DNA from: Bradyrhizobium sp. CB3481
Lineage (GTDB): Bacteria > Pseudomonadota > Alphaproteobacteria > Rhizobiales > Xanthobacteraceae
Assembly (NCBI RefSeq): GCF_029714305.1
Contig: NZ_CP121647.1
Span: forward strand, 3,368,501-3,432,500
Reading direction: 5' to 3'
DNA: 64,000 bases
This document shows, piece after piece, positions 32,606-35,580 of this stretch. The notes beneath the pieces are model-generated. The model saw only the letters and a list, made by a program, of their open reading frames with translations, ran no database searches and was not told where the DNA came from. How positions within the stretch are numbered: the stretch's first letter is position 1; the number at the start of each line of letters is the position of its first letter. Both the position numbers and the translations under genes were made by a program.

Positions 32606-32751
32606 CATCTGCGTCATTGCCCGCAAATGGGCAGACGATCCGCACCGCGGAATGATGGACTTATCGAAGCCGAGCACCAAATAATGTCCGGCGTCTGCCG
32701 ATGGCCCCGGAGCGGGCCTCGGCCTCGGAGGCGACGGGAGAAAGCCTGAAC

Positions 32752-34083
32752 ATGGTCTCAGCAGCAGAACAACTTGCCGCCAACCTCAATTTCGGCGCTC
32801 TGGCGAAGGCCGACGAACTGAAGAAGCGCATCTGGTTTACGCTGGGTGCGCTGCTTGTTTATCGGCTGGGCACCTATATCCCGCTGCCCGGCATCGATCC
32901 CGCGATCTGGGAACAGGTGTTCAAGTCGCAGGCCGGCGGTATTCTCGGCATGTTCAACATGTTCGCCGGCGGTGGCATCCACCGCATGGCGATCTTTGCG
33001 CTGAACATCATGCCGTACATCTCGGCATCGATCATCATCCAGCTCCTCACCACGGTTTCGCCGCAACTCGAAGCGCTGAAGAAGGAAGGCGAGGCCGGCC
33101 GCAAGACGCTGAACCAGTACACGCGCTATTTGACGGTGATCCTCGCCGCGTTTCAGTCCTACGGCATCGCCGTCGGCCTGCAGGGCGCCGGCAACGTGGT
33201 CAGCGACCCCGGCATCTTCTTCCTGCTCTCCACCACGATCACGCTGACCGGCGGCACCATGTTCCTGATGTGGCTCGGCGAGCAGATCACCTCGCGCGGC
33301 ATCGGCAACGGCATCTCGCTGATCATCTTGGCCGGCATCGTGGCCGAATTGCCCTCGGCGCTCGCCAACATGCTGGAACTGGGCCGCCAGGGCGCGCTGT
33401 CGACCGGCCTGATCCTGATCGTCATCGTGATGGCGGTCGCCGTGATCGCCTTCATCGTGTTCATGGAGCGCGCGCAGCGCCGGCTCTTGATCCAGTATCC
33501 GAAGCGCCAGGTCGGCAACAAGATGTTCGAGGGCCAGTCCTCGCATCTGCCGCTCAAGCTCAACACCTCGGGCGTGATTCCGCCGATCTTCGCCTCGTCG
33601 CTGCTGCTGCTGCCGGCGACGGTCGCGAACTTCAACGCCGGCAAGGGACCGGAATGGTTCCAGTGGCTCAACACGCAGCTCAGCCACGGTCGCCCGCTGT
33701 TCCTGTTCCTTTATCTGGCGCTGATCGTGTTCTTCGCCTTCTTCTATACGGCGATCGTATTCAACCCGACCGAGACCGCCGACAATCTGAAGAAGCATGG
33801 TGGCTTCATTCCCGGCATCCGCCCGGGCGAGCGCACCGCCGAATATATCGACTACGTGCTGTCCCGCGTCACCGTGCTCGGTGCGATCTATCTTGCGATC
33901 GTCTGTCTGATTCCCGAGATCCTGATTTCCTATGCGTCGGTGCCGTTCTATTTCGGCGGCACCTCGCTTCTGATCGTCGTCAGCGTGACCATGGATACGG
34001 TGGCGCAGGTGCAGGGTTATCTGCTCGCCCATCAGTATGAAGGGCTGATCAGGAAGTCCAAGCTGCGGGGCCGTCGCCGCTGA
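32752..34083 (+). CDS. secY: Preprotein translocase subunit SecY
   Basis: Forms the protein-conducting channel of the Sec translocon with SecE and SecG. The 443-residue product has about ten hydrophobic segments; GTYIPLPGIDP marks the plug region after helix 1, and ALNIMPYISASIIIQLL and GGTSLLIVVSVTMDTVAQV are conserved helices 2 and 10. The ATG at 32752 follows GGGAGAAAG; the frame is open from 32701 but MVSAAEQLAANLNFG is the family start. Adk follows after 76 bases. Confidence 0.98.
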   Translation: MVSAAEQLAANLNFGALAKADELKKRIWFTLGALLVYRLGTYIPLPGIDPAIWEQVFKSQAGGILGMFNMFAGGGIHRMAIFALNIMPYISASIIIQLLTTVSPQLEALKKEGEAGRKTLNQYTRYLTVILAAFQSYGIAVGLQGAGNVVSDPGIFFLLSTTITLTGGTMFLMWLGEQITSRGIGNGISLIILAGIVAELPSALANMLELGRQGALSTGLILIVIVMAVAVIAFIVFMERAQRRLLIQYPKRQVGNKMFEGQSSHLPLKLNTSGVIPPIFASSLLLLPATVANFNAGKGPEWFQWLNTQLSHGRPLFLFLYLALIVFFAFFYTAIVFNPTETADNLKKHGGFIPGIRPGERTAEYIDYVLSRVTVLGAIYLAIVCLIPEILISYASVPFYFGGTSLLIVVSVTMDTVAQVQGYLLAHQYEGLIRKSKLRGRRR

Positions 34084-34159
34084 TCAGCGGCCACGCATGG
34101 TCTGAAATTTCAATAAAGGTGTGCGGGGTTTCGCTCACCAAGCCGGGGGGCGAATAGTC

Positions 34160-35005
34160 ATGAGATTGATCCTTTTGGGGCCGCCGGGGTCGGGGAAGGG
34201 TACCCAGGCGCAGCGGCTGGTGCATCGCTACGGGATCGTGCAGCTCTCGACCGGCGAGATGCTGCGCGCGGCGGTAGCCGCCGAGACGCCGGTCGGGCTG
34301 AAGGCCAAGGACCTTATGGCCAATGGCCAGCTGGTGCCTGATGAGATCGTGGTCGGAATCATTTCCGACCGCATCGACCAGCCCGATGCCGCCAAAGGTT
34401 TTGTTCTTGACGGCTTCCCGCGGACGGTGCCGCAGGCCGAGGCACTCGATGAACTCCTGAAGAAGAAGCATCTGCGCCTCGACGCGGTGGTCGAGCTGCG
34501 CGTCAACGAGAGCGCGCTGCTGCAGCGCGTCGAAACCCGCGTCGCCGAGATGCGCGCGCGCGGCGAGGAGGTCCGTGTTGACGACACGCCGGAAGTGCTG
34601 ACCAAGCGATTGGCCGCCTACCGGTCGCAGACCGAGCCGCTGATCCACTACTATTCGGAGCGGCGCAAGCTCGCCACCGTCGACGGCATGATGTCCATCG
34701 AGCAGGTGACCCGCGAGGTTAACCGGATCCTGTCCGCCGTCGGTGCGCTGGAACCCAAGGCGGCGCCGGCCCGGAAGGCCAAGGGAGCCGCCAGGAAGAG
34801 CGCCAAGCCAGCCGCTAGATTGGCGGCCAAACCAGCCAAAAAGGCCCGTAAGGTCGCCAAAACGGCCTCGAAGGGGGGCAAGAAAGCCGGCCGGAAGGCT
34901 GCTGCGGCGGTCAAGGGGCGGGGAGCTGGCAAGGCCAGGAAGGCGGCCAAAAGGGCTGTCCCGAAGGCGGCCAAGAAAGTCACGAAAAAGCGAGCTAAAC
35001 GCTAG
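34160..35005 (+). CDS. adk: Adenylate kinase with histone H1-like C-terminal tail
   Basis: Catalyses ATP + AMP to 2 ADP. The catalytic part (1 to about 197) has the P-loop GPPGSGKGT at 8-16, the AMP segment STGEMLRA, the DGFPRT motif at 84-89 and a short LID without zinc ligands. From residue 200 to 281 follows a tail of 82 residues with 24 Lys, 10 Arg, many Ala and no Asp or Glu, in the AxKKA style of histone H1/AlgP-like proteins. The frame is continuous, so this is not a frameshift. Family length is about 190-215. The tail could bind nucleic acid or ribosomal RNA; that is inference. Start at 34160 follows a run of Gs. Confidence 0.95.
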   Translation: MRLILLGPPGSGKGTQAQRLVHRYGIVQLSTGEMLRAAVAAETPVGLKAKDLMANGQLVPDEIVVGIISDRIDQPDAAKGFVLDGFPRTVPQAEALDELLKKKHLRLDAVVELRVNESALLQRVETRVAEMRARGEEVRVDDTPEVLTKRLAAYRSQTEPLIHYYSERRKLATVDGMMSIEQVTREVNRILSAVGALEPKAAPARKAKGAARKSAKPAARLAAKPAKKARKVAKTASKGGKKAGRKAAAAVKGRGAGKARKAAKRAVPKAAKKVTKKRAKR

Positions 35006-35211
35006 AATCGGTTGACGAAACCCGTTTGAATCCCTTAATAAGCCCCGCATCCAGATCGGATAGTTTTCAGACGATGCCGGGCCCCGGGAAACCAAGGGGT
35101 TAGGGCGTCGTGTTCGCGTTTGTGGACACCTGCCCGAGCGAAGCAAGACAAGGCGCGCGAGCGTCTTAACCGAAATGTCCGGCCCGGTGGCCGGCGACAG
35201 GAGAGAATTCC

Positions 35212-35580
35212 GTGGCCCGTATTGCCGGCGTCAATATCCCGACCAACAAGCGCGTCCTGATCGCGCTCCAGTACATCCATGGCATCGGCCAGAAGAACGC
35301 CGCCGACATCATGGATAAGGTGAAGATCCCGCTGGATCGTCGTGTCAGCCAGCTGAGCGACCAGGAAGTCCTGCAAATCCGCGAAGTGATCGACCGCGAT
35401 TATCTCGTCGAAGGCGACCTTCGCCGTGAGACCGGCATCAACATCAAGCGCCTGATGGACCTCGGCTGCTATCGCGGCTTGCGTCATCGCCGCGGCCTGC
35501 CGGTGCGCGGCCAGCGCACCCACACCAATGCGCGCACGCGCAAGGGCCCGGCCAAGGCGATCGCCGGCAAGAAGAAGTAA
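35212..35580 (+). CDS. rpsM: 30S ribosomal protein S13
   Basis: Head protein forming intersubunit bridges. The 122-residue product starts with GTG at 35212 ([20 protein letters not shown]) after AGGAGAG, and contains TYIHGIG-like [10 protein letters not shown], then [26 protein letters not shown], the basic tail that reaches the A/P sites. First gene of the alpha group. A 16-base hairpin (35179-35194) lies directly upstream of the ribosome site and could affect initiation. Confidence 0.98.

Follow-up and report, generated by a model that had tools for sequence, protein, structure and literature searches.

The adk gene in a stretch of 64,000 nucleotides from Bradyrhizobium sp. CB3481 (the whole stretch analysed, hereafter called the window) encodes a short-form adenylate kinase (Adk) that carries a polycationic arm of ~88 residues, probably an anchor, with a promoter-like element at the end of the gene. 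The arm is predicted to be unstructured and is kept for its net positive charge, against acidic residues. It would bind polyanions electrostatically and regardless of sequence, with RNA or ribosomes, the DNA of the nucleoid and perhaps polyphosphate as partners. The AMP-recycling Adk would thereby dwell where the cell is rich in nucleic acids. In addition, the last codons of adk and the first ~35 nt beyond them make up a conserved promoter-like element in front of rpsM. Polyanion binding, Adk localisation and promoter activity are inferred.

The adk gene and its C-terminal tail

The adk open reading frame runs on the forward strand from the ATG at 34160 to the TAG at 35003-35005 and encodes 281 residues in one frame (Table 1). 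A longer version starting from a GTG at 34121 is possible on paper; relatives were aligned from the ATG. The Pfam ADK model PF00406 matched residues 5-168 (E 9.3e-56), and AlphaFold2, run on 38 aligned sequences, gave a confident core with ten-residue block means of 81-95 over residues 1-190. Invariant in the 38 aligned Adk sequences are GPPGxGKGT, R36, R88, R123, D141-D142 and R150, and to these residues and the P-loop we presumptively assign the catalytic roles. The last predicted helix covers residues 180-193 and the mean pLDDT is down to 48 in residues 201-210; hence the initial annotation, which let the catalytic domain end near residue 197, had the right region, but the exact site lies nearer 193. 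It had also described the adjacent genes as ribosomal, which agrees with the downstream gene, starting at 35212 and taken by us to be rpsM (ribosomal protein S13), but not with the upstream one, which we take to be secY.

Table 1. Positions of adk, its neighbours and the conserved DNA elements in the window
Feature	Position	Strand	Basis
Upstream neighbour of adk, presumably secY	32701..34083	+	ORF and translation
Adenylate kinase catalytic core, residues 1-193, without long LID insert (short form)	34160..34738	+	PF00406, AlphaFold2, invariant residues
Lys/Ala/Arg-rich C-terminal tail, residues 194-281, predicted unstructured	34739..35002	+	Composition, pLDDT, relatives
GTCACGAAAAAGCGAGC, block in the last tail codons, conserved as DNA	34979..34995	+	Silent sites, untranslated survival
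adk stop codon TAG	35003..35005	+	
TTGACG, -35-like hexamer	35012..35017	+	Conservation near adk stop
TTAATA, conserved -10-like hexamer, spaced 17 nt from TTGACG; putative promoter of rpsM and following genes	35035..35040	+	Column conservation
Downstream neighbour of adk, presumably rpsM	35212..35580	+	ORF and translation

The genome of the window holds one strong match to adk and a second at E 5.9e-4. The solved structures closest in sequence are those of standard adenylate kinases, and among the best 60 of 94 matches at E<=1e-10 none extended past query residue 207. The NCBIfam model NF010381 (PRK13808.1, 335 positions) aligned to residues 1-280 with 464.4 bits (cutoff 426); like the window protein it covers both core and tail. 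The fused form is thus already a curated model, named 'adenylate kinase' alone, and its description states no function for the tail. The best reading of the window Adk is an ordinary short-form kinase, with predicted activity, to which a basic tail is attached.

Residues 200-281 (34757-35002) contain 24 Lys, 10 Arg and 28 Ala and neither Asp nor Glu, so that the earlier count of basic and acidic residues proved exact; from residue 196 to 281 there are 34 K/R and 1 E. Compared with the composition of the protein's own core, the chance of at least 34 K/R in 82 residues is 2.8e-9 and that of no D/E is 4e-6, values that serve as a guide only for a stretch selected post hoc. AlphaFold2 gave block means of 47-57 from residue 201 on and no secondary structure. 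The tail is therefore of the H1-like or AlgP type in being predicted unstructured, Lys/Ala-rich and acid-poor, and the likeness to histone H1 and AlgP that had been proposed holds for the composition but not for regular repeats, since the AxKKA-like units are irregular and regular KPAA repeats were not found. No tandem array was detectable in the window copy of the tail, and with E values of up to 1 allowed, no histone model was present among the 9 Pfam matches or the best 25 of 26 from NCBIfam.

Loci were collected by similarity to the window protein, a procedure that favours near relatives; 74 loci came from scanning named genomes and the others from additional genome searches. The 206 loci gathered hold an Adk in 205 cases (L002 is without one), and removal of identical proteins and of incomplete copies such as L170 left 192 Adk proteins, all distinct and complete. 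As many as 133 of these, the window's included, have at least 245 residues, and all 133 carry a comparable basic tail; 59 are shorter, a number that includes a frame-shifted copy discussed below. Counted from residue 194 the tails are 52-238 residues long, with a K+R fraction of 0.28-0.50 (mean 0.381, sd 0.037), a mean D+E fraction of 0.015 and a mean proline content of 5%; 76 of the 133 are free of acidic residues beyond residue 199. Among the named genomes, Bradyrhizobium, Afipia and Rhodopseudomonas are examples of carriers; both Ancylobacter copies are without a tail. Among copies placed on the tree, with 1-3 copies for most genera, the tail was present in 30 of 47 sampled genera of family f1 (28 with it in all copies, and the two mixed genera g20 and g34) and absent from 17. 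This corresponds to 50 of 74 tree rows of family f1 and 0 of 12 rows of other families. The 25 other-family loci from the order search (L181-L206 without L191) showed no tail. Among the matches listed in a class-wide full-length search, none outside the window's genome passed query residue 202 without a stop, and four reached query residues 233-250 across stops. Among the papers listed by the literature searches, none deals with this tail.

Selection on the tail and its possible roles

Selection was analysed in 41 nearest-neighbour pairs (core identity 0.863-0.982), leaving out the last 11 residues of the tail. The dN/dS was 0.324 in the tail interior and 0.068 in the core; uncertainty in the alignment may have raised the dN of the tail, which could also reflect weak constraint. 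Single-base codon differences in the tail were K-R in 71 cases, K-E in 3, A-E in 1 and A-D in 0. Both K-R and K-E take one A/G transition, therefore a ratio of about 1:1 is expected under drift. In an identity-only alignment, which does not favour K/R, the counts were 63 K-R and 3 K-E (binomial P 6.5e-16 under 1:1) and D or E was involved in 7 of 433 tail differences, and in the 20 closest pairs the tail had 28 K-R and 0 K-E. The folded core gave a similar result (14 K-R, 0 K-E); therefore the test shows that the tail is not drifting freely and does not identify a binding partner. Net charge increased with tail length (Spearman 0.84, n=133), and none of the 133 tails fell below a net charge of 0.2 per residue. 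Judged from the sequences, what selection on the tail keeps is positive charge, and not a particular sequence or length.

The main rival of the anchor reading is a neutral, tolerated expansion, where GCC/AAG-type slippage between the core and the promoter-like element would have produced a functionless tail from which only harmful (acidic or hydrophobic) variants are purged. Tail length varies from 52 to 238 aa, in part through repeats, of which a Rhodopseudomonas copy contains a clear tandem array (9.6 copies of a 15-base unit), relatives without a tail exist and the dN/dS of the tail is ~5 times that of the core, all of which would fit such an expansion. However, a dN/dS of 0.32 is well under 1, the K+R density stays narrow (0.381, sd 0.037) over a 4.6-fold range in length, the window copy is free of detectable tandem repeats and the charge never drops below the limit given above. 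We consider a purely tolerated tail rather unlikely on this evidence.

An anchor arm has parallels in known systems. In Pseudomonas, AlgP (and PhaF) has, like the Adk tail, a long disordered Lys/Ala-rich H1-like C-terminal region, and in AlgP a fragment of the KPAA domain is reported to bind DNA, while polyphosphate granules depend on this domain for their positioning (PMC9239181). AlgP is described there as a DNA-binding protein and not an enzyme, and it differs further from the Adk tails, which have few prolines and, in the window, no tandem array. The lysine repeats of actinobacterial TopA (also HupB, Ku and HrdB) form an H1-like basic C-terminal extension, and according to PMC7398561 TopA resembles Adk in that a Lys-rich C-terminal extension is attached to an enzyme in GC-rich bacteria. 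TopA, HupB, Ku and HrdB already work on DNA, whereas Adk acts on free nucleotides.

Two more specific destinations of the arm can be considered. First, the tail could specifically bring Adk to polyphosphate granules for the exchange of AMP and ADP with polyphosphate kinases. This is in line with the association of AlgP with such granules, for whose positioning its H1-like repeat domain is needed (PMC9239181), and with the regeneration of ATP in vitro by polyphosphate:AMP phosphotransferase together with adenylate kinase, as given in a title cited in PMC8776046. The main text on AlgP, however, makes no mention of adenylate kinase, and we regard the granule as improbable as the specific destination. 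Second, the tail could seat Adk on the ribosome, or on the assembling ribosome, similar to Fap7/AK6 (hCINAP), whose adenylate kinase activity is tied to ribosome biogenesis; Fap7 binds Rps14 and has adenylate kinase activity in the passages seen of PMC4019466. In the same passages Fap7 contacts Rps14 by its substrate cavity and domains and not by a basic tail, a basic tail is not described, and Fap7/AK6 belongs to another subfamily than the window Adk. An AK6/Fap7 model was absent among the best 25 of 26 NCBIfam matches, where the strong ones are standard adenylate kinases. The position of adk next to rpsM would fit a ribosomal seat, but carries little weight because rpsM follows adk also in the tail-less loci listed.

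An isoleucyl-tRNA synthetase (IleRS) with a tail of its own bears on the same question. IleRS of the window's genome (L239:476-3979, minus strand; G000:C1 ~1285975-1289478; TIGR00392, 787.1 bits) has 1167 aa and a Lys/Ala-rich C-terminal extension of ~168 residues that also holds acidic residues. A tail on IleRS would suit a shared translation site, but it was present in 1 of 30 IleRS loci read, from 30 of the 61 genomes searched, and absent in the 29 others. A 'translation hub' shared by Adk and IleRS was rejected for this lack of co-occurrence, and a ribosomal seat of Adk seems to us a poor prospect. Unlike the Adk tail, the IleRS tail looks recent or local.

When the Adk tail was used as query against the genome it returned itself and one insignificant match (E 0.455). 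A pattern search allowing at most 1 mismatch gave 103 forward and 84 reverse matches, compared with 51 and 54 for the reversed pattern. At least the following were seen when 30 loci of pattern matches were read in one frame each, and more may exist. At G000:C1 ~1232650-1232840 (L210) there is a stand-alone histone-H1-like ORF of 123 aa (MAKKSKKAKKAKK...) that carries acidic residues towards its C-terminus, and small ORFs ending in, or made of, MAKKAKKAKK-type Lys/Ala-rich peptides were found at G000:C1 ~3706112, 5031650 and 5081978. The window Adk also matched weakly to a valine--tRNA ligase model (PRK14900, NF011492), with residues 81-279 aligned to 860-1038 of 1044 (12.7 bits, E 0.021). This is far under the cutoff of 1783 bits and hints that another housekeeping enzyme may have a comparable basic tail; the match probably reflects composition only.

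A promoter-like DNA element at the end of adk

The tails end in conserved residues, and we compared silent sites in 74 copies picked for a KRAK-type ending. Silent-site identity was 0.89-1.0 at codons -10 to -4, counted from the end, where the core has a median of 0.65 and a 95th percentile of 0.94. Elsewhere it was 0.33-0.87 (codons -11 to -30, with 0.38 at -11 and 0.33 at -12) and 0.40-0.69 (codons -3 to -1). The Arg codon CGA was used at codon -4 in 73 of the 74 copies, as compared to 19 of 381 Arg codons in tail interiors. Moreover, GTCACGAAAAAGCGAGC is present as untranslated DNA in four species of genus g20 (L110, L111, L112 and L177), exact in two and with one change in two, and TTGACG now lies 81-163 nt after their stop codon. 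The conserved C-terminal motif is thus best read as a DNA constraint, because silent sites are near-fixed and the block is kept without translation, and on the same grounds we set aside the view that the peptide motif signals a protein function. This constraint appears to set most of the terminal residues (KKVTKKRAK, RLTKRR), and the block at the end of the tail probably belongs to the rpsM promoter region.

TTGAC was found between -40 and +60 relative to the adk stop in 131 of the 133 copies with a tail and in 42 of the 59 short ones, compared with 14 of 133 and 1 of 59 in a control stretch; it was absent from the scanned stretch in 17 of the 59 short copies. TTGAC starts 9 nt after the beginning of the stop codon in 77 of the 133 tailed copies. 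In 27 it starts 15 nt before the stop, with TTGACG read as L-T of an RLTKRR-type end, and in 6 the TTGACG hexamer itself supplies a TGA stop. The stop codon of the tail lies, depending on lineage, before or inside the promoter-like element. In 23 representatives aligned on TTGAC, which is fixed by this anchoring and was chosen with help of AAT.C-like text, the columns of GAATCC and TTAATA reached 1.2-2.0 bits. The spacing TTGACG-17-TTAATA is conserved, and a strict sigma-70 scan scored 0 sites; therefore we call the element promoter-like only, and it is a promoter that we infer.

Conservation of the 3' end as DNA might suggest that all of the DNA coding for the tail serves as a spacer that regulates the expression of rpsM, with the protein as a by-product. 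The silent-site identity falls upstream of codon -10, to the values of 0.38 and 0.33 given above (single codons reach up to 0.87), the length of the interior varies widely and the interior is selected for charge, all of which make such a spacer very improbable.

Gain and loss of the tail

On a tree of Adk core and RpsM (86 rows, with 37 of 83 inner branches weak) the tail trait requires at least 12 changes, as compared to 21-33 (mean 27.4) in 200 label shuffles. The three g20 rows without a tail group together with a support of 96 within a genus whose other two rows are tailed, and four tail-less g20 copies have remnants of the tail's end 3' of the stop. Tail loss in g20 is clear because of this nested group and these remnants. 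In the four g20 species named above, where the tail is lost, Adk ends in SGVPMSKFGVRRW or a close variant of it. A similar nesting is seen for three g34 rows without a tail, which lack tail remnants beyond promoter-like text; apparently, the tail was lost in g34 species as well. The tail has been lost in some close relatives, therefore the kinase does not need it everywhere. Since it is absent in 17 of 47 sampled genera, lost in g20 and apparently in g34, any benefit of the tail must be conditional. The main text of a Tn-seq paper on B. diazoefficiens (PMC8225791) mentions neither adk nor adenylate kinase.

One congener of the window looked at first sight tail-less: genome G285 (L106/L107) has a one-base insertion at adk codon ~183, a sequencing error or a recent mutation, and was ruled out as a tail-less relative, as the +1 frame still encodes the intact tail. 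The frame change in G285 would also fit a tail produced by a sequencing or frame artefact, an explanation that we reject as next to impossible, since 132 further distinct proteins, from many separate assemblies, are read through in this frame. The fusion is in frame, as had been stated at the outset, with one open frame from ATG to TAG and relatives that read through in the same frame; tail-less relatives combined with a frame error near residue 198, named in the initial annotation as grounds against it, were not what we found.

Taken together, our results suggest that a charged Adk tail is kept by selection in numerous genera, with Bradyrhizobium, Rhodopseudomonas and Afipia among them. In the systems that we compared, H1-like tails sit on DNA-handling proteins; here such a tail sits on a metabolic enzyme of free nucleotides. 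A broader picture, which we offer tentatively and as one that may well not hold, is that Adk is kept on a polycationic leash across much of the family, with adenylate exchange at the nucleoid, ribosomes or polyphosphate and a gene end of dual use. If so, one stretch of DNA would serve both as the coding end of the tail and as the promoter region of downstream ribosomal genes. The overlap of the tail's end with the promoter-like element is also a caution that conservation of a C-terminal peptide may in fact come from a signal in the DNA. If the arm is indeed an anchor, exchange between ADP, AMP and ATP would be held locally and the adenylate charge would be set locally. Local adenylate setting in bacteria could then be tested by removing one tail, and the related species without a tail would provide natural controls.
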